Origin: a virus
Strand: one strand, 5' to 3'
IMG/VR virus record: IMGVR_UViG_3300025168_000578
Location: 1-26,049 of that record
Length of the DNA stretch: 26,049 nucleotides
Positions 3,840 to 22,355 of the stretch are shown here, in pieces; within the stretch, counting starts at the first letter, position 1, and every line of letters starts with the position of its first letter. A program made the position numbers and the translations under genes. The notes beneath the pieces are model-generated. The model saw only the letters and a list, made by a program, of their open reading frames with translations, searched no databases and was not told the origin of the DNA.

Positions 3840-4321
3840 CACAAACCTACCCCCCTGTCATCCTTTCCTGTCTTGCGTTCTTCATACGCTATTAAAAACA
3901 TAAGACAGCAAGCGGCGTGATGAAGATGACTTGCGCCTGTCTCCCTATCCGTGTCCTCACCTCTCCACCATGCCCACATATGGCGCATCAACGCACCGAA
4001 AGGACGGCTCCAATTCATACCTCTCTCCCAATTACGTGCGCCATACTTCTTAGCACCAAACTGTAATATCCCTACAGTTGCGGCTAAAAACTCAGGTGCA
4101 AGTAATTCATACGGTAACTTGTTCTGGTCAAACTTTAAACCAACACGTTTTGGGTCGTTAGGCATATCATGCCCACACCCTAAACATGAGAAAGAGGACC
4201 ATCCATTGTCCGCTAAAGTGTGTTTGTAGTTACACTCAGTGCATATAACTATGAGGTTTTCTTTGTCAAACTCAAACCTCTCTAATGGGGGGTCAAAAGG
4301 TAACTCTAACTGTTCACTCAT
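3839..4321 (-). CDS. dATP/dGTP diphosphohydrolase-like protein (DUF5664 type) with N-terminal zinc ribbon
   Basis: A 160-residue protein. The C-terminal two thirds carries the sequence signature I associate with the DUF5664 family (described as dATP/dGTP diphosphohydrolase N-terminal domain): FGAKKYGARNWERGM, RHMWAWWRGEDTDRETG and HLHHAACCLMFLIAYEE. These supply the Glu, Asp and His positions expected of a MazG/HD-like all-alpha nucleotide hydrolase. The N-terminal part has Cys27-x2-Cys30 and Cys46-x2-Cys49, a zinc-ribbon arrangement. The likely role is adjusting the purine dNTP pool during phage replication, consistent with its position directly upstream of the DNA polymerase, which it overlaps by one base. 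The ribosome binding site AGGAGA lies 6 bases before the start. Substrate is not deducible from the sequence. Confidence 0.7.
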   Translation of the reverse strand: MSEQLELPFDPPLERFEFDKENLIVICTECNYKHTLADNGWSSFSCLGCGHDMPNDPKRVGLKFDQNKLPYELLAPEFLAATVGILQFGAKKYGARNWERGMNWSRPFGALMRHMWAWWRGEDTDRETGASHLHHAACCLMFLIAYEERKTGKDDRGVGL

Positions 4322-4461
4322 CTGTCTCTCCTAAACCAATCTATAATCTTGTTGATCCAACTATTACTAATACTGAAAATAGAAATTTCTGATACGTCGT
4401 CTACATACTCGATAGAACCGTCATCGTAGCGGTACACAATTGACGTTAGTTTTTTAGTCAT
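4318..4461 (-). CDS. Small hypothetical protein (47 aa)
   Basis: A short ORF starting MTKKLTSIVYRYDDGS and ending IIDWFRRDR. Its stop overlaps the start of the diphosphohydrolase-like gene (ATGA), and its own ATG overlaps the stop of the upstream ORF in the same way, so it fits a chain of translationally coupled leftward genes. A weak GGA lies about 9 bases before the start. The sequence is acidic in the middle and ends basic. No family is recognised. Confidence 0.6.
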   Translation of the reverse strand: MTKKLTSIVYRYDDGSIEYVDDVSEISIFSISNSWINKIIDWFRRDR

Positions 4462-4634
4462 TCGTCTTTATCCATCAACGAACCGTCAATTATGTTGCGG
4501 CTGGCGGCTATGCGTCTTTCCATTGCTGGCAACGATGTTTTGCGACGAGGTGGAATGTCCGGAGTTTTCCTACCAAAATACTTGTTGGTCATCGGGTTAC
4601 ACTTAAAGATTTTGCTGATCCATTGTTTTAACAT
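4458..4634 (-). CDS. Small basic hypothetical protein (58 aa)
   Basis: A short ORF beginning MLKQWISKIFKCNPMTNKYFG, with a basic, Pro-rich middle (TPDIPPRRKTSLPAMERR) and an acidic tail. AAGGA lies 7 bases before the ATG, and the stop overlaps the next start (ATGA). Coupling at both ends and the good ribosome binding site support expression. Function is unknown. Confidence 0.6.
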   Translation of the reverse strand: MLKQWISKIFKCNPMTNKYFGRKTPDIPPRRKTSLPAMERRIAASRNIIDGSLMDKDE

Positions 4635-4644
4635 TATGTTTTCC

Positions 4645-4965
4645 TTATATGGTTTTAAATTTAACGTCCCTGAATTGCTGCCCGTTTAGTAAACGCGTCC
4701 AAACAACTTCTGGCGAACGTCGAGCTTCAAACTTTGCCATCTGTTCTTCTTTGATTGCTTTTAGCTGTGCTTTCTCTTCTCTACTGTAAAGACCTTTTCT
4801 TTCTTTGGCCCGCTTCCGCTCTTTTTGTTCTTCTGACCGCAATTGTTTCGGACGTATGGGGTTATCCGCTAAGAACTCCCTGCACCACTTCCTTTCTTGT
4901 GGTGTTGACTCAACCTCTAAAGACAATATCTCTAACGCTTCCCTTCGCAGTTTCTCAACAGTCAT
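4645..4965 (-). CDS. Charged hypothetical protein, probably helical
   Basis: A 106-residue protein rich in Lys, Arg and Glu. Residues about 45-80 (LRSEEQKERKRAKERKGLY and the following KAQLKAIKEEQMAKF) would form a long charged helix or coiled coil. The C-terminus ends in a short hydrophobic and basic stretch. GGAG lies 7 bases before the ATG, and the ATG overlaps the stop of the upstream 50-residue ORF (ATGA). No family is recognised. A nucleic-acid-binding accessory role would fit the composition and position but is only an inference. Confidence 0.65.
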   Translation of the reverse strand: MTVEKLRREALEILSLEVESTPQERKWCREFLADNPIRPKQLRSEEQKERKRAKERKGLYSREEKAQLKAIKEEQMAKFEARRSPEVVWTRLLNGQQFRDVKFKTI

Positions 4966-5114
4966 ATTACTACTCCATCTAATAGTTCCATAGCTTTTGT
5001 GTATGTTAGTTGTCCGTGAAAGACCAACCAGTTTACCGCGTCAAAGTATTCTATCTCCCCACCTTTAACGCGTGCCATAAGAACTTCTGGGTAAGTTAAT
5101 ACTGATTTAACCAT
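4962..5114 (-). CDS. Small hypothetical protein (50 aa)
   Basis: A short ORF beginning MVKSVLTYPEVLMARVKGG, with a GGGAG ribosome binding site about 6 bases before the ATG. Its stop overlaps the start of the next gene (ATGA) and its start overlaps the end of the upstream Cys-containing gene by 8 bases. It looks like a small folded domain with alternating hydrophobic residues (FDAVNWLVFHGQLTY). No family is recognised. Confidence 0.6.
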   Translation of the reverse strand: MVKSVLTYPEVLMARVKGGEIEYFDAVNWLVFHGQLTYTKAMELLDGVVI

Positions 5115-5301
5115 AAGACTCTCCCTCTTGGTTTGCAGTAAACACTTCTAGTGCGGGACAAAAAGTAGGGTTCGGTGGACCACCATTTAGCAACCTACAC
5201 CCATCATCTTCCCAGTTCCATTCACACCCCACACAGTTCTCATCTCCATTATCAAAGAAGTCACCGATCATCTCCCATGTCGGATCTATTTCACGTGCCA
5301 T
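5107..5301 (-). CDS. Small acidic cysteine-containing protein, possible zinc binder
   Basis: A 64-residue acidic protein with Cys23-x2-Cys26, Cys35 and Cys48, spaced as a possible single zinc site. It is rich in Trp, Asp and Glu. GGGAG lies 7 bases before the ATG. It overlaps the end of the VRR-NUC gene by 11 bases and the start of the next ORF by 8, so it belongs to the coupled leftward cluster. Function is unknown. Metal binding is inferred from the cysteine spacing alone. Confidence 0.65.
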   Translation of the reverse strand: MAREIDPTWEMIGDFFDNGDENCVGCEWNWEDDGCRLLNGGPPNPTFCPALEVFTANQEGESYG

Positions 5302-7732: not shown

Positions 7733-8941
7733 TTATAACTCCCTTGATTTAACGTGAACACATTTACCTACATCAGGTACGGCATTTTTATTGTCTATGA
7801 TTATCCAAAGTACAGGACACGACCAATTACCCCAACTACCACCAAGATATCCATCGGTGATAACAATCGCACACTGAGGTGTTATGTTGTTGTCGTCTAA
7901 GTATTGCGGGACACACTCGACATCAGTACCCCCACCACCTTTTGGTTTAGTAGAATGTATGAAGTCATCCAGTTCATGCATCTCATACTTCTCGTCACCA
8001 CATACAGCGGTGTCCCAGTACAACATGCGTAACCATTCGGGTTTGACAAGCTCGGACAAAGTCTTGATTTCTGTTAGAATGACTGATTGTTCTTGTACAC
8101 CAATGGACCCCGACATATCCCCACACGTTGCTATACCCCCAACCCTCTCGGATATACCGCTCGGCATATAATCACCACTAGCAATAAAGCGTCTGTTAGG
8201 ACGTCTCCACGTAGAGTAATCATTGCCCGAACAAGTGTTGGATATGTACTCGCGTAGCATTTCGCGCCAATCAACTTGAGGTTTAAGTAGTTCTGCGATG
8301 GATAGATCAACATTACCCCCCATCTTGCCAGCGATCAACGCGCCTTGGCGTACAGCTTCATCCAGATCACGCCCAAGCTCACGTTGCTCTTCGGCACTTA
8401 TCTCCTGCGCACCTTCCCAGTCATGTTCATCGAAACCAGTTCCCTGACCCTGACCCTGACCCTGACCCTGACCCTGACCCTGACCCTGATCTTCTTGGTC
8501 TTGTTTTATTATGTTGAATACTTGAGCGGTGTCCATGTCTCGGAACCGTTGGTCAAGTAATCCACAACTGGGCATAACTGCAAAGCCATCTTGGTTGTCA
8601 TCCAATATCTTTATGTTGATAACATAATCACATGCTATGTTTGCGAGTTGTGCATCTTCGCGGTATAAATGTTCCCACGTGATGAGATGTCTATACAGCT
8701 TGTGATAGCTCTCATGTAAAATTAGAAACCTAAGTTCTGGATCAGACAAGCTCTCGACAAACTTCCTGCCGTACATCTCATCACGACCATTCGTACACGC
8801 TGTTGGTATGTCTTCGCGCACCGTGCGCTCTCCGATCATCAACACACCAGCAAGGGCGACATACTTATCGTTACCCATGATATCGACAACCGCTTTCGAT
8901 AGACGTTGCTCGACTGTTAGTTGTTTCCCTATACTTAACAT
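7733..8941 (-). CDS. VWA-domain protein with HExxH metallopeptidase motif (DUF2201-like)
   Basis: A 402-residue two-part protein. The N-terminal half carries HESYH at residues 76-80, a zincin HExxH motif, within a segment (LRFLILHESYHKLYRH, then ANIACDYVIN) typical of the putative metallopeptidase domain that precedes VWA-like domains in DUF2201-type proteins. A low-complexity linker of eight Gly-Gln pairs (about 152-167) follows. The C-terminal half is a VWA-like domain with an intact MIDAS: DMSGS (Asp275, Ser277, Ser279), a Thr in GGGGTD and Asp in VITDG. Such proteins pair with MoxR AAA+ ATPases, and the MoxR gene lies directly upstream. Together they probably act as a metal-dependent remodelling or protease complex. 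Target and role in infection are unknown. AGGAG lies about 8 bases before the ATG. Confidence 0.9.
   Translation of the reverse strand: MLSIGKQLTVEQRLSKAVVDIMGNDKYVALAGVLMIGERTVREDIPTACTNGRDEMYGRKFVESLSDPELRFLILHESYHKLYRHLITWEHLYREDAQLANIACDYVINIKILDDNQDGFAVMPSCGLLDQRFRDMDTAQVFNIIKQDQEDQGQGQGQGQGQGQGQGTGFDEHDWEGAQEISAEEQRELGRDLDEAVRQGALIAGKMGGNVDLSIAELLKPQVDWREMLREYISNTCSGNDYSTWRRPNRRFIASGDYMPSGISERVGGIATCGDMSGSIGVQEQSVILTEIKTLSELVKPEWLRMLYWDTAVCGDEKYEMHELDDFIHSTKPKGGGGTDVECVPQYLDDNNITPQCAIVITDGYLGGSWGNWSCPVLWIIIDNKNAVPDVGKCVHVKSREL
8442..8489. repeat. Hexanucleotide microsatellite (ccctga)8 in the VWA gene
   Basis: Eight perfect tandem copies of ccctga. Read on the minus strand they encode eight Gln-Gly pairs, the linker between the metallopeptidase-like and VWA parts. 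Length changes of whole units keep the frame. Confidence 0.9.
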
Positions 8942-10151: not shown

Positions 10152-11150
10152 TTATAGTGTCATGTCTATGGATAGTGATGGTAGTTGTGCTATTGCTAAA
10201 TCTACCTTGCGTTTGGTTTCGGCGCGTAGATAGTCGTCATCACGTAACGCGTCCGGTGTAACTCCCCGCAACGCGTTGTCTAATTGCTTGGCGATCTCGC
10301 TCATCTGCGCATCGTTGGTAATGTTGCACACGTTCATCAAATCTATCATATCGATGACATTATCAACTAATGTGTCGCGGAACACTTTCTTGGTTTCGTT
10401 TGATGCATAGTCGAGCCGCTCCGACATACTCACCAACACCTTGTGGACACGTGTCCATATGTCACCTATCGCATTGGTTAGTTGGCGGCTGTAGTATTCT
10501 TGGTAGTGAGCTTTGATCTGCTCATTACCTTCCGCACCAACATCAGTGCGAAAATCGTCCGCGAGTGGAATGTAAGATAATCTAAAACTAAACTTGTTAG
10601 TGAGCGCACTAACACTCGGGTACTCATCACGATGAAAGAAGTCACCGAGCTTGGTTTGAGCGTTGCTGATCTCCCACTCATACTCACGCATACATAATCG
10701 TGCTAGGTCTTCCCACTTAGATTGCATTGCCGTCATCTCCTTATTGTATTTAAAGTATTGTGCGGTTGGAAGTAAACGAAGCCCCGTATCTGACCAAGGC
10801 ATTGTCATGCTGTAATGCATGTTGCGAATGTTCCCTGTCATTTTGTGTAGTGCTTCTAGTGTCTCCCAGTCACCCATAAGTTTCTTGTTAACTGATGCCA
10901 CACCAGAAGCGGCATTGTTGTCCGCTGTAACTTCTTTGGATGCCTTGCGATCTTTCTTGCGTCCCGTCCACTGACTGATGGATAGCTCGGTCAACATCGC
11001 GCTTGATCCGATAGATGGTACGGATATCTCTGGTGGTGTATTGTCGAGTACATTTGTTAGTGCCGCACTAACATCTTGTGCGATAGGCGTGTTTGTGCCG
11101 CCGTCGATTTCGACGGCTTGGTCTTGGTAGGCGTTACTTGCGGTATTCAT
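10152..11150 (-). CDS. DUF3150-like protein, first gene of the MoxR/VWA module
   Basis: A 332-residue mainly helical protein. The segment LSISQWTGRKKDRKAS, then GNIRNMHYSMTMPWSDTGLRLLP with a following YF, LGDFFHRDEYPS and PLADDFRTDVG match the pattern I associate with DUF3150, a family often coded next to MoxR and VWA genes on plasmids and phages. Its biochemical role is not known. It is the first gene behind a near-consensus sigma70 promoter and has AGGAG 7 bases before the ATG. Two copies of the 19-bp palindrome family lie inside the coding sequence, encoding VSAALTN (about residues 27-33) and VSALTN (about 180-185). The stop is followed after one base by another copy. Confidence 0.78.
   Translation of the reverse strand: MNTASNAYQDQAVEIDGGTNTPIAQDVSAALTNVLDNTPPEISVPSIGSSAMLTELSISQWTGRKKDRKASKEVTADNNAASGVASVNKKLMGDWETLEALHKMTGNIRNMHYSMTMPWSDTGLRLLPTAQYFKYNKEMTAMQSKWEDLARLCMREYEWEISNAQTKLGDFFHRDEYPSVSALTNKFSFRLSYIPLADDFRTDVGAEGNEQIKAHYQEYYSRQLTNAIGDIWTRVHKVLVSMSERLDYASNETKKVFRDTLVDNVIDMIDLMNVCNITNDAQMSEIAKQLDNALRGVTPDALRDDDYLRAETKRKVDLAIAQLPSLSIDMTL
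10595..10614. repeat. Palindrome variant, copy 4, inside the DUF3150-like gene
   Basis: TGTTAGTG-AGCG-CACTAACA, the only copy with a 4-base spacer. It lies in coding sequence and encodes VSALTN on the minus strand; the 18-bp core fills exactly six codons. Confidence 0.8.
11055..11073. repeat. 19-bp palindrome, copy 5, inside the DUF3150-like gene
   Basis: TGTTAGTG-CCG-CACTAACA near the 5' end of the DUF3150-like gene, encoding VSAALTN on the minus strand. Confidence 0.85.
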
Positions 11151-11195: not shown

Positions 11196-11224
11196 ATAGT
11201 ACCTAATGTTAGTAGGTATGTCAA
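11196..11224 (-). promoter_or_regulatory. Near-consensus sigma70 promoter of the MoxR/VWA operon
   Basis: On the minus strand TTGACA (11224-11219), a 17-base spacer and TACTAT (11201-11196). Transcription would begin near 11189, about 40 bases before the DUF3150-like start. An inverted repeat TACCTA-N7-TAGGTA covers the spacer and reaches the -10, and a TGTTAGT half-site of the palindrome family sits in the spacer. Both are candidate operators. Confidence 0.8.
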
Positions 11225-11327
11225 TGTTTACCAAAACGTGTCAGGGTTTGTATTGTTCTGTAATGTTCCGTAATGTTCTTTAGTGTAGGCCAGCAAGTAT
11301 TTGATAAGTAAGGAATGTTGCAATGTT
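11205..11327 (+). repeat. AATGTT iteron-like cluster, direct orientation
   Basis: AATGTT occurs at 11205, 11223, 11262, 11272, 11314 and 11322. Three consecutive 10-bp units occupy 11251-11280 (tattgttctg, taatgttccg, taatgttctt), and two 8-bp units AATGTTGC lie in tandem at 11314-11329. Helically phased repeats of this kind usually bind an initiator or regulator cooperatively. Confidence 0.65.
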
Positions 11328-11390
11328 GCTAAAATGCGGGGTGCGATGAAGGGGTCGGACAGACACGCTCACGTGGTAACCAACTAACAG

Positions 11391-11470
11391 GCATAATTGA
11401 TAAACATTTTTGAGATATCATACTATTTTCAAACTACTACATTACATACTATATATATAAAACTAAACAG
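11391..11470. other. AT-rich core of the non-coding region
   Basis: About 80 bases with few G or C, including an atatatata run near 11450-11459, lying between the two halves of the AATGTT/AACATT clusters. It could be a DNA unwinding element. This rests on composition and position only. Confidence 0.45.
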
Positions 11471-11515
11471 TTTGCTAAAAGCTGATAGGCAAAGGAGAGA
11501 ACACCTTGTATAACC

Positions 11516-11543
11516 CTGTCACAAAACAACATGAAACTATAAT
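11516..11543 (+). promoter_or_regulatory. Possible rightward promoter in the non-coding region
   Basis: CTGTCA (11516-11521), 16-base spacer, TATAAT (11538-11543). It would transcribe the 110-bp repeats rightward. The -10 is perfect, the -35 is 4 of 6. No gene follows on this strand, so a non-coding RNA is the only possible product. Confidence 0.35.
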
Positions 11544-11662
11544 GTTCTTTTCACTTGCAACATTAGGCTCTTTTTTGCAACATTACACCCCGTAAAAACG
11601 GAACATTCTTTTGTTATCAATATGTTAGTGCCGCACTAACAAACTACATTGCAAAGAACATT
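11541..11662 (-). repeat. AACATT iteron-like cluster, mostly inverted orientation
   Basis: AACATT, the reverse complement of AATGTT, occurs at 11559, 11579, 11602 and 11657, with one direct AATGTT at 11541. Two of the copies are within TTGCAACATTA (11555-11565 and 11575-11585), an 11-bp direct repeat spaced by exactly 20 bases. With the left cluster, this makes a roughly inverted arrangement around the AT-rich core. Confidence 0.6.
11623..11641. repeat. 19-bp palindrome, copy 6
   Basis: TGTTAGTG-CCG-CACTAACA in the non-coding region, among the inverted AACATT motifs. Confidence 0.85.
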
Positions 11663-11720
11663 ACCTAATAACAATGACTTAAGGCTCAACGCGACTCTAA
11701 GAACTGGTTTCGTGGTGTTA

Positions 11721-11739
11721 TGTTAGTGCCGCACTAACA
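11721..11739. repeat. 19-bp palindrome, copy 7
   Basis: TGTTAGTG-CCG-CACTAACA, within the first unit of about 110 bp in the non-coding region. Confidence 0.85.
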
Positions 11740-11829
11740 AACTGTCCCCCGGCAGCACGGTTTAAGTCACGCACGATAACAAGTTACTACAGGCTCAACG
11801 CGACTCTAAGAACTGGTCTCGTGGTGTTA

Positions 11830-11848
11830 TGTTAGTGTGTCACTAACA
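11830..11848. repeat. 19-bp palindrome, copy 8
   Basis: TGTTAGTG-TGT-CACTAACA, at the equivalent place in the second unit of about 110 bp. The arms are identical to copy 7 while the spacer differs. Confidence 0.85.
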
Positions 11849-11943
11849 ACTAGCAGCCGGGTATCCGGGAACCTTAGAGCCACGCACGATAACAAATTAC
11901 TACGGGCTCAACGCGACTCTAAGAACTGGTTTCTTTTGGACAC

Positions 11944-11975
11944 AAAAAAAGGACGACACCCGAAGGTGCCGCCCG
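11944..11975 (-). terminator. Intrinsic terminator after the leftward membrane protein gene
   Basis: On the minus strand a 10-bp stem, GGGCGGCACC with GGTGTCGTCC (two G-U pairs), closed by a TTCG tetraloop and followed by seven T. It lies 6 bases beyond the stop at 11981, so it ends the 12926-11981 transcript before the origin-like region. Confidence 0.88.
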
Positions 11976-11980
11976 AGAAG

Positions 11981-12316
11981 TCATGGGATATATCTAAAAT
12001 CATTATCAAACATCATTAAGAAATCGATAATCGTTTGTTCGTGTGTAGCGCCAATCCAGCCCATCACACAAATAGCAATCGTACAAAGTAAGAAACTCTG
12101 CAAGAATATCGACCGAGACAACCTTTTGTAAATCTGTTGAAACTTAGTTGGTTTAATTATTGTAAACATATTTTCAGATGGTTCTTGATAGTTATTAAAT
12201 ACAGCATCAAGATTTTTTAACCATATATCATGGCGTCGTTTGGCGTCTTCATCAAATTGCTTTCGGTCTTGCTTTTTTATTACGTATTTCGGTTTTACGT
12301 CTTTATAGTATCGCAT
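11981..12316 (-). CDS. Small membrane protein of unknown function
   Basis: A 111-residue protein. The N-terminal 65 residues are strongly charged and basic, followed by one clear hydrophobic segment at about 70-90 (IFLQSFLLCTIAICVMGWIGA) and a short C-terminal tail. The positive N-terminal side predicts N-in topology. GGAG lies 7 bases before the ATG. The gene ends directly at an intrinsic terminator and is preceded by the most extended palindrome of the window. Possible roles include membrane anchoring of replication or a lysis or exclusion function; the sequence does not decide. Confidence 0.65.
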   Translation of the reverse strand: MRYYKDVKPKYVIKKQDRKQFDEDAKRRHDIWLKNLDAVFNNYQEPSENMFTIIKPTKFQQIYKRLSRSIFLQSFLLCTIAICVMGWIGATHEQTIIDFLMMFDNDFRYIP

Positions 12317-12374: not shown

Positions 12375-12926
12375 TTATACCTTAGTGTTCAGAATTTTAG
12401 ATAACTGAACAATATGATGTAGAGCCTCTACAACATCGAACGTCGCGCCTTCCGCCTTTTCCAAGCGCTTGAGCATTTGGGTTGCACGTTCCAAACAGAA
12501 CGTCTTGTCGTCCGTGCGCTTGTCGTCGGCGCCCTTGGCTGGTGTCGGGTTCAAGCGCTTGTTTAGCGCCCGTTGGTAGTCGTTCCTACGTGCTCCAATT
12601 TGCGCTTGAATGTAACGTCTTGTACCTTTCGCTGGAAGTTTTGCATCGCCCTTTTGACCTGCTTCATTACCTGCTTCCAGTGATTTGATTGGGCAATTAA
12701 TCAATCTACGTTCACTTGCTGTGAAACTTGCCATAATTGCACCATTTAACTCGCCAAAGAATGCGATGTGGGCCTTGTCGCTAGTGTCCTTCTTAGGACT
12801 CTTAAAGAATTCCAATGACACTCCATCAGCTATAAACCCGTCTAGTACAATAGCCATAAGGCTGGCGGTCTTAGTGTTGGCCCTGCTGTGTGTCGTGATC
12901 GCTTTGATTGTTTTAACGTTTAACAT
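12375..12926 (-). CDS. Hypothetical early protein (183 aa)
   Basis: A basic, probably helical protein of 183 residues with no recognised domain. It has a basic central region (KGTRRYIQAQIGARRNDYQ) and a C-terminal leucine-rich helix (ATQMLKRLEKAEGATFDVVE). Two starts are possible. The ATG at 12926 is preferred because GGAG lies 9 bases before it; an in-frame ATG at 12941 (5 residues longer) lacks a ribosome binding site. It is the first leftward gene next to the divergent region, so it is probably expressed early. It is followed by the 13-bp-arm palindrome and the small membrane protein gene. Confidence 0.65.
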   Translation of the reverse strand: MLNVKTIKAITTHSRANTKTASLMAIVLDGFIADGVSLEFFKSPKKDTSDKAHIAFFGELNGAIMASFTASERRLINCPIKSLEAGNEAGQKGDAKLPAKGTRRYIQAQIGARRNDYQRALNKRLNPTPAKGADDKRTDDKTFCLERATQMLKRLEKAEGATFDVVEALHHIVQLSKILNTKV

Positions 12927-13056
12927 GTTGTTAGTCTCCATTTAATCGCGGCAACATTATTGTTCCGTTCGATGATTAGATAATAACAAGTTTTGATGTA
13001 ATGTATATAGATAAACGAGCACTAAACTAAATAAAACTACATAAGACTACACGATT

Positions 13057-18506: not shown

Positions 18507-19502
18507 ATGCCATTTGAAAAAGTTGAGTTTGAACTTCCCGTTGCGGAAGAAGATAAAGAAACTTCTAGTTTTGAAATTGAAGTTGAACCGGCCCCTGCGT
18601 TAGAAGTTAATGGAGCTGACGATGACGACGAAGATTTTAAAATTGAAGTTGTTGATGATACGCCGAAAGCGGATCGTAAGCGTAAAGTATCTGATCCACC
18701 AGAAGATGTAACTGAAGATGAGCTTGAAGAGTATTCTGAGAAAGTTCAGAATCGTATAAAGCACTTTAGTAAGGGGTACCATGATGAACGTAGAGCTAAA
18801 GAAACAGCGTTACGAGAACGTCAGGAACTTGAAAGTTTAGCCCAACAGCTTATTGATGAGAACAAAACCCTCAAAGGCACCGTTGGAAAGAATCAATCAG
18901 CACTTCTAGAACAAGCAAAGCTCTCTGTCGATAGTGATCTAGATAAAGCAAAGCGTTCTTATAAAGAAGCATACGAGTCTGGAGACTCAGAAGCTGTCTT
19001 AGAAGCACAAGAAAGTTTAACTACTGCTAAGATAAAGGCAGATAGGTTAAATAATATTAAGTTACCCTCTTTACAGGATAACGAGTTACCTGTAGGGTCA
19101 GAGGCAACGAATGAACAACCCGCCCCGGTAAAAATTGACGAACGGGCCGCAGAATGGGCGAAAGCCAATACGTGGTTCAATGTAGACGAAGAAATGACAA
19201 GTTTAGCGCTGGGGCTGCATCATAAACTTGTTAACTCGGGTGTAAGCCCGCAAAGCGATGAATACTACGAGAGACTTAACACTCGTATGCAGGAAGTTTT
19301 TCCCGATAGTTTTGACGGGGATGAAAAACAAGAAGTAGTACCGAAACGTCGGGCTAATGTGGTTGCCCCCGCTACGCGGAGTTCAGCACCTAAGAAGGTG
19401 ACGTTAACGCAAACACAGATAAACCTTGCAGCGCGTCTAGGACTTACTCCTAAACAGTACGCCACACAGGTTGCAATAGAAATGAGGAAAGAAAATGGCT
19501 GA
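18507..19502 (+). CDS. Head scaffolding protein
   Basis: A 331-residue protein with a typical scaffold layout. The N-terminus is very acidic (VNGADDDDEDFKIEVVDD). The middle is a long charged coiled coil (about 80-180). A Pro/Gln-rich linker leads to a short, basic, helix-turn-helix-like C-terminus (KKVTLTQTQINLAARLGL), where scaffolds bind coat protein. AGGAGA lies 7 bases before the ATG; an upstream in-frame ATG (18477) lies inside the co-chaperonin gene and lacks a site. The gene is two ORFs and about 1.1 kb upstream of the major capsid protein, the expected order. It probably directs prohead assembly and is then removed. Confidence 0.82.
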   Translation: MPFEKVEFELPVAEEDKETSSFEIEVEPAPALEVNGADDDDEDFKIEVVDDTPKADRKRKVSDPPEDVTEDELEEYSEKVQNRIKHFSKGYHDERRAKETALRERQELESLAQQLIDENKTLKGTVGKNQSALLEQAKLSVDSDLDKAKRSYKEAYESGDSEAVLEAQESLTTAKIKADRLNNIKLPSLQDNELPVGSEATNEQPAPVKIDERAAEWAKANTWFNVDEEMTSLALGLHHKLVNSGVSPQSDEYYERLNTRMQEVFPDSFDGDEKQEVVPKRRANVVAPATRSSAPKKVTLTQTQINLAARLGLTPKQYATQVAIEMRKENG

Positions 19503-21569: not shown

Positions 21570-21626
21570 AAATCATCCCTGACAGTTACATTGTGTAGCT
21601 GACACCAGCCAAGACAGGAGATACAC

Positions 21627-22355
21627 ATGGCTAATACAACTTTTAACGGCCCAGTACGGTCGGAAAATGGCTTTCAACAAGTTACTAAAAATGCTACTAC
21701 TGGAACTGTAGCTCAAAAACAGTTTGAACTTCAAACTGTTGCAACTTCTGGCGTTAACAATGTTGTTGACACAAATGGTTTTTCAGGAACAGCTACTGCC
21801 GCTGGAGCAAACAATGCTAGTTTAGATACTGGCGCTACTATTTTTGGGATTACTCCTAACGCTCATGGATCTGGCATTGCTGATGCTTCTATTAACACTT
21901 TTATTAACAAAGTTGGCGGCACTATCGTAACGTCCATTCTTATTGACCTTCAAGGTGGATTTGTTGGATCAGCTTCAGCAGATCGTGTTATTGGTGTTGG
22001 CACTGCTGCTAATGCATACATTGCTGAACTTACAAAAGAAGTGAACGGCATTCCAATTCTGCTAGAGTTTGGTTGCGTAGAAGTACCAACTGGTGGTGAC
22101 CCAGATATTAACGTAGACATTTCTGCTACAGGAACTACTGCTTCTGCTGCTGCGGTTGCTTCTGGTACTCAGATGATGAACAACGGCGATCTTACTCTAG
22201 GTTACTATAACGCCGTAGATTCTGGCGCTGTTATGGCGGCCCTGACTAAAAAGTATGTGTACCTTGTACAAGGTACTGCAACAAACGCCGCTTATTTAGC
22301 AGGTAAAATTTGGATTCGTATTACTGGCATGAACGTCGATTATGCTAATGGCTAA
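21627..22355 (+). CDS. Putative virion structural protein (242 aa)
   Basis: A 242-residue Ala-, Thr-, Gly- and Val-rich protein with beta-rich appearance and very low charge. It opens MANTTFNGPVRSENGFQ and ends IWIRITGMNVDYANG. The composition and its position as a single gene between two terminators suggest an abundant virion component such as a head fibre or decoration protein. AGGAG lies 8 bases before the ATG. A candidate promoter lies 50-90 bases upstream. No family with known function is recognised. Confidence 0.7.
   Translation: MANTTFNGPVRSENGFQQVTKNATTGTVAQKQFELQTVATSGVNNVVDTNGFSGTATAAGANNASLDTGATIFGITPNAHGSGIADASINTFINKVGGTIVTSILIDLQGGFVGSASADRVIGVGTAANAYIAELTKEVNGIPILLEFGCVEVPTGGDPDINVDISATGTTASAAAVASGTQMMNNGDLTLGYYNAVDSGAVMAALTKKYVYLVQGTATNAAYLAGKIWIRITGMNVDYANG

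Follow-up and report, generated by a model that had tools for sequence, protein, structure and literature searches.

A conserved iteron array as the very probable replication origin of an aquatic phage group, with a PrimPol-DUF927 protein as candidate initiator

A non-coding array of short repeats (iterons, AATGTT) in a 26-kb virus fragment is very probably where a large group of aquatic phages, most of them uncultured, starts genome replication, as judged from sequence comparison. The window analysed here is the whole 26,049-bp stretch of IMG/VR record IMGVR_UViG_3300025168_000578, which is a fragment of a ~61-kb phage and a distant relative of HTVC023P/MinM2. The best explanation for the array, and in our assessment probably the right one, is an iteron origin fired by the phage's own PrimPol-DUF927 Rep protein. 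The group is known mostly from metagenomes, and one published account of the HTVC023P type mentions no origin.

The array comprised 12 exact AATGTT or AACATT hexamers in 458 bp (Table 1), placed exactly as in a preliminary description of this DNA. That description had put the number expected by chance at well under one, which proved too low: 2,000 dinucleotide-preserving shuffles of the 458 bp gave a mean of about 1 and a maximum of 5. Among 458-bp windows, the array was also the strongest hexamer cluster of the record. The 8-bp tandem pair described earlier was recovered, while only two of the three units said to be phased at 10 bp are exact, the first being degenerate. The AT-rich stretch noted amid the array (11400-11466) contains the 60 bp of lowest G+C in the entire window (11/60 G+C). 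Here, the homologue of the core iteron of relatives is the degenerate TACATT, and the exact AACATT is additional. The region shares two features with iteron origins: a non-coding cluster of short repeats far denser than chance predicts, and an AT-rich candidate unwinding region within or beside them. The earlier reading of an initiator-dependent origin is supported by comparison with relatives.

Table 1. Features of the proposed origin region, in window coordinates.
Feature	Position	Strand	Remarks
Direct AATGTT	11205, 11223, 11262, 11272, 11314, 11322, 11541	+	exact copies
Inverted AACATT	11403, 11559, 11579, 11602, 11657	-	exact copies
Whole iteron array, proposed replication origin	11205..11662	.	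12 exact copies; conserved in relatives
10-bp-phased direct iterons AATGTTCCGTAATGTT, preceded by degenerate ATTGTT (11252)	11262..11277	+	equivalent pairs in relatives
Second motif YAAGNCNTTG, window version CAAGTATTTGA	11294..11304	+	fixed distance upstream of 8-bp tandem pair
8-bp tandem iteron pair AATGTTGCAATGTT	11314..11327	+	from sequence; kept in relatives
G-rich stretch between left iterons and AT-rich core	11336..11364	+	G runs in equivalent place in several relatives
AT-rich core (79% A+T), putative unwinding region	11400..11475	.	contains TACATT (11438) and AACATT (11403)
TGATAGGCA element (TGATARGCA)	11483..11491	+	in most relatives 44-46 bp past core iteron and 58 bp ahead of next direct iteron
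Single direct iteron with invariant 58-bp spacing	11541..11546	+	spacing in relatives
Inverted iterons at 11559, 11579, 11602 and 11657	11559..11662	-	exact copies
Degenerate mirrored copy of second motif, ACAATGACTTA	11671..11681	-	8 bp past last iteron; 9 bp in L017 and L030
Promoter-like TTGACA-17-TACTAT, leftward into DUF3150-AAA-VWA operon	11196..11224	-	overlaps two leftmost iterons; equivalents in relatives read by eye
GGCTCAACGCGACTCTAAGAACTGGT repeat, three copies (11683, 11792, 11905)	11683..11933	+	palindrome after two of them
Operator-like palindrome TGTTAGTGNNNCACTAACA, three copies (11623, 11721, 11830)	11623..11848	.	from sequence
DUF3150 protein gene at head of leftward early operon; left boundary of region	10152..11150	-	from homology
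Intrinsic terminator of leftward gene 11981-12316; right boundary of region	11951..11974	-	from sequence
188-aa all-helical protein gene, next conserved gene rightward	12375..12941	-	candidate origin accessory factor

Relatives were gathered via the ATPase (n = 80), and 44 non-redundant upstream regions were compared. AATGTT was enriched in most of these 44 loci, where the observed counts were matched by few shuffles, if any. Loci outside this enrichment include L015, L027, L061, L063, L064, L069, L075 and L076, several of which carry related words instead (such as ATGTTC, GGAACA or CGAATA). The preliminary description had named a lack of conservation in relatives as grounds for giving up the origin reading; the array is kept in relatives, as is the polarity that had been noted in the window, the left side holding direct copies and the right side inverted ones (concordance averaging 0.90 in the 28 loci that have at least six copies). 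The order of elements was likewise constant: phased direct copies, the second motif, the 8-bp tandem pair, a G-rich stretch, an inverted core iteron and the AT-rich core, followed by TGATARGCA, a direct copy, an inverted cluster, GGCTC..GAACTGGT units with palindromes, and the terminator. Spacing followed a fixed 44-58-18 bp geometry overall, in which every one of the 20 exact cases had 58 bp between TGATARGCA and the next AATGTT, and 16 of 21 cases had 44 or 45 bp between the core iteron and TGATARGCA. Moreover, in 29 non-redundant modules YAAGNCNTTG preceded the tandem pair at a constant distance (positions -19, -18, -12 and -11 nearly invariant), and it was mirrored on the right side in L017 and L030.

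We also scanned 2.9 million viral contigs with a DNA-only pattern that joined the second motif to the tandem pair. This recovered at least 118 loci; among the matches listed, 111 of 118 lay near DUF3150, the ATPase, terS or terL, and the other seven had no match to the neighbour proteins, most of these being short. An apparent inversion of the whole array relative to the genes was dropped, the pattern having been matched by the mirrored right-hand module. No AATGTT array was seen in ~25 kb around terL of the cultured phages HTVC023P, HTVC027P, 023Pt_psg01, DSL-LC04 and MinM2. Part of the region's conservation may be regulatory, because the region also contains a promoter and operators.

In relatives, the array occupies the slot between the DUF3150-AAA-VWA early operon and terS-terL. 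The leftward block to its left in the window encodes the DUF3150 protein, a MoxR-like AAA ATPase, a VWA protein, nucleases, a family-A DNA polymerase, an exonuclease and an SNF2 helicase, and to its right lie leftward genes for 111-aa and 188-aa proteins, a putative terS, terL, portal and GroES. TerL was 41-47% identical to that of HTVC027P, HTVC023P, DSL-LC04 and MinM2, and the related terminase, portal and GroES block is shared with the HTVC023P/MinM2 type, GroES being downstream in both. The closest relative (G010) was colinear, with core proteins mostly 84-88% identical. The predicted model of the DUF3150 protein was of low confidence (pLDDT 75, pTM 0.46). At the start of its reading frame (window 10997-11150), homology begins near Met52 (about 10997), and translation may start at this residue, in which case the palindrome at 11055 would fall in the leader. 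The 188-aa protein gave a confident all-helical model (pLDDT 91) with the conserved core KRYWQQQIGARRNDF.

Cumulative GC skew had been proposed earlier as a check on the origin, a minimum elsewhere counting against it. In G002 and in G003 the minimum fell no more than ~2-3 kb from the array, and G001 showed a local minimum there. However, skew also tracks gene orientation, and genes diverge where it turns. The skew thus agrees with an origin but is no independent test, because divergent transcription coincides with it.

No classical initiator had been recognised among the genes visible in the window. This observation stands for the window itself, but a candidate PrimPol-DUF927 gene is expected beyond the truncated left end. 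In G010, the left edge of the window falls at position 8756, with the DUF927 domain at 4309-5136, and the gene should therefore start ~2.5 kb past the end of the window. The homologous protein of G002 (952 aa) combines DUF927 (E = 1.2e-32) with a weak PrimPol match. A DUF927 protein was present in five of five near-complete relatives and in 21 of the 36 IMG/VR records searched; those lacking it were all under 30 kb and may simply stop short of the gene. It was not found in five cultured distant phages, and some relatives that encode it have few or no AATGTT copies (e.g. L075/G009), their iteron perhaps having diverged. Homologues share invariant DLD, SGxGxHxYW, GKT and DE residues, which we take to be the expected primase and Walker motifs. 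A profile built from 16 of them matched 8tch, a SaPI 'pathogenicity island protein' (E = 9.5e-20), as well as 5dgk, an SCC helicase (E = 5.4e-14). The PrimPol-DUF927 protein, which is thus related to SaPI Rep and SCC Cch, is our candidate for the initiator. The DUF927 helicase Cch is related to SaPIbov1 Rep, and relatives of the DUF927 protein bind iterons themselves (PMC7581432). Fusions of primase to DUF927 have been described in mobile elements, and C-terminal winged-helix domains of related primases have been suggested as origin recognisers (PMC5862659).

The SaPI module (SaPIbov1-type Rep) relies on a DUF927/MCM-like AAA+ helicase homologous to the one encoded here, which was found in relatives, the window ending before the gene. 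Its origin reportedly has an AT-rich region with an iteron set on either side, the two sets being in opposite orientation, and opposed sets of short iterons around an AT-rich region were likewise found in the present loci, with the concordance given above. Kin of SaPI Rep and of SCC Cch are self-loading and recognise iterons. The two systems differ in that SaPI is a satellite, whereas the present one belongs to a virulent-type phage genome, has its primase fused to the helicase, uses the iteron AATGTTC and adds further rigidly spaced motifs to the origin. Furthermore, the SaPI origin lies directly downstream of rep, whereas the array is ~15 kb from the DUF927 gene in G002 and G010; because the array is not beside rep, we call the system a variant of the SaPI/SCC type and not a member of it. 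SCCmec Cch is a DUF927 helicase as well, and Cch2 binds short direct repeats adjoining its gene, but the putative SCC origin for Cch2 has three AAGTG iterons only (PMC7581432), compared with 8-12 in two opposed sets plus a second motif here. Origins of iteron plasmids (Rep, DnaA and a DUE) similarly place direct iterons beside an AT-rich unwinding region. Unlike these, the present array contains no DnaA box, no RepA-type initiator was found, the iterons form phased opposed sets, and the candidate initiator is itself a helicase-primase.

A mechanism can be proposed for the iteron origin fired by the PrimPol-DUF927 protein. The protein, encoded in the early operon, would bind both oppositely oriented iteron sets and assemble there as self-loading AAA+ helicase hexamers in two rings. 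The helicase would then melt the AT-rich core, unwind bidirectionally and prime for the phage family-A polymerase, with helicase loading having no need for DnaA or DnaB. Binding of the initiator could, in addition, damp transcription from the early promoter, which the leftmost iterons overlap.

The protein that reads the iterons could be a different one, most likely the 188-aa helical protein or some other factor, with the DUF927 protein recruited only as helicase-primase. The 188-aa gene adjoins the array in 49 relatives, its product has a far higher rate of evolution than terL or the ATPase and contains a conserved basic segment (KRYWQQQIGARRNDFK), and the presence of two rigidly spaced motif classes suggests two binding proteins. 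We nevertheless consider this unlikely, as the 188-aa protein matched no DNA-binding protein by fold or by family (searches of Pfam, PHROG, PDB and BFVD gave no match, and the structure list gave helical-bundle-level scores only), and direct iteron binding is known for relatives of the DUF927 protein (PMC7581432). Also rather unlikely is a two-component origin in which the DUF927 helicase would read AATGTTC, a second protein (possibly the 188-aa one) would read YAAGNCNTTG at its fixed spacing, and trinucleotides abutting the iterons would open the strands as an analogue of DnaA-trios without DnaA. If so, such an origin would belong to an abundant aquatic phage group.

A purely regulatory region, whose repeats bind a phage regulator of divergent early and late units with no replication start, would account for the promoter over the two leftmost iterons, the operator-like palindromes in and around the array, and the divergence of genes at this point. 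Yet 12 sites over 460 bp, symmetric about the most AT-rich stretch and set at fixed 44-58-18 bp distances, would be unusual for a promoter, and nine palindromes already supply operator sites over the early region; we regard this reading as distinctly improbable. There is very little to recommend a pac or genome-end site read by the small terminase: the array does lie 1.6-2 kb upstream of putative terS/terL, and the nearby repeated GGCTC..GAACTGGT units could be pac, but near-complete relative contigs start at differing positions relative to the array, and an AT-rich core with oppositely oriented iterons is not typical of pac. An oriC-like origin dependent on host DnaA seems just as remote. In the basal unwinding system of bacterial oriC, an AT-rich core is likewise adjoined by repeat sites, in some cases with a trinucleotide periodicity, and CTACTA/ATTATT trinucleotides resembling DnaA-trios follow the core iteron in some relatives. 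In the present loci this periodicity is weak (lag-3 z 2.9 and lag-6 z 4.2, pooled over related loci), and DnaA-trio scores per locus were mostly not significant. Against such an origin, no DnaA box (TTATNCACA) within one mismatch occurs anywhere in the array or between 8962 and 14589, and neither DnaA_C nor DnaB_C domains were found in 11 records.

An outgroup, Pseudomonas phage Rollin, suggests that the iteron word can change and leave a similar layout in place. Rollin encodes a DUF927 homologue (28% identity over 90%), and eight of the nine TATGCAA copies in its record are packed into 700 bp, half of them direct and half inverted (maximum of 3 in shuffles). Three inverted TATGCAA copies 9 bp apart are followed by an AT-rich AATAATAATAAT stretch (AATAATAAT), and the region also has a TAAGTGGTTGATTTT element resembling the second motif. 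Rhizobium phages encoding a 23% homologue had a pair of inverted elements similar to the second motif; no clear iteron was found in them.

If the iteron origin fired by the PrimPol-DUF927 protein is correct, the self-loading helicase system of SaPI/SCC would reach from staphylococcal islands to virulent-type aquatic phages. With a conserved origin and a named candidate for its initiator, tests of initiation in this group need two parts (a ~500-bp segment and one gene). The origin is recognisable by sequence alone, and could therefore mark contigs of the group and show where their replication starts. With an iteron word that varies by lineage (AATGTTC, TATGCAA) in a layout that looks similar, these phages would also offer a natural experiment in the co-evolution of initiator and origin.

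Several other repeats were observed in and beyond the region. The palindrome TGTTAGTGNNNCACTAACA has nine perfect 19-bp copies (5631, 8992, 10132, 11055, 11623, 11721, 11830, 12344 and 13057), mostly just 5' of early genes, and relatives have other palindromes at such places, namely TTAGGGA..TCCCTAA (L042, L063, L085), CGGTTCAGNCTGAACCG (MinM2) and AAAAGGTAG-N7-CTACCTTTT (Rollin). These palindromes are putative operators of a regulator whose specificity changes between relatives. Two to three copies of the GGCTCAACGCGACTCTAAGAACTGGT repeat separate array and terminator in most relatives; this repeat is possibly a pac or origin accessory element. An Rfam search gave no match within the array, and matched Mu-gpT-DE RNA (RF03012, 71.8 bits) at 21577-21629 in the head-gene region. 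A CCCTGA hexamer cluster (8 in 458 bp) overlaps the VWA gene at about 8051-8900, and in L097, 15 GGATCA hexamers occur in 460 bp near 18641 (about 58.6 kb in G002), overlapping a long ORF of G002.
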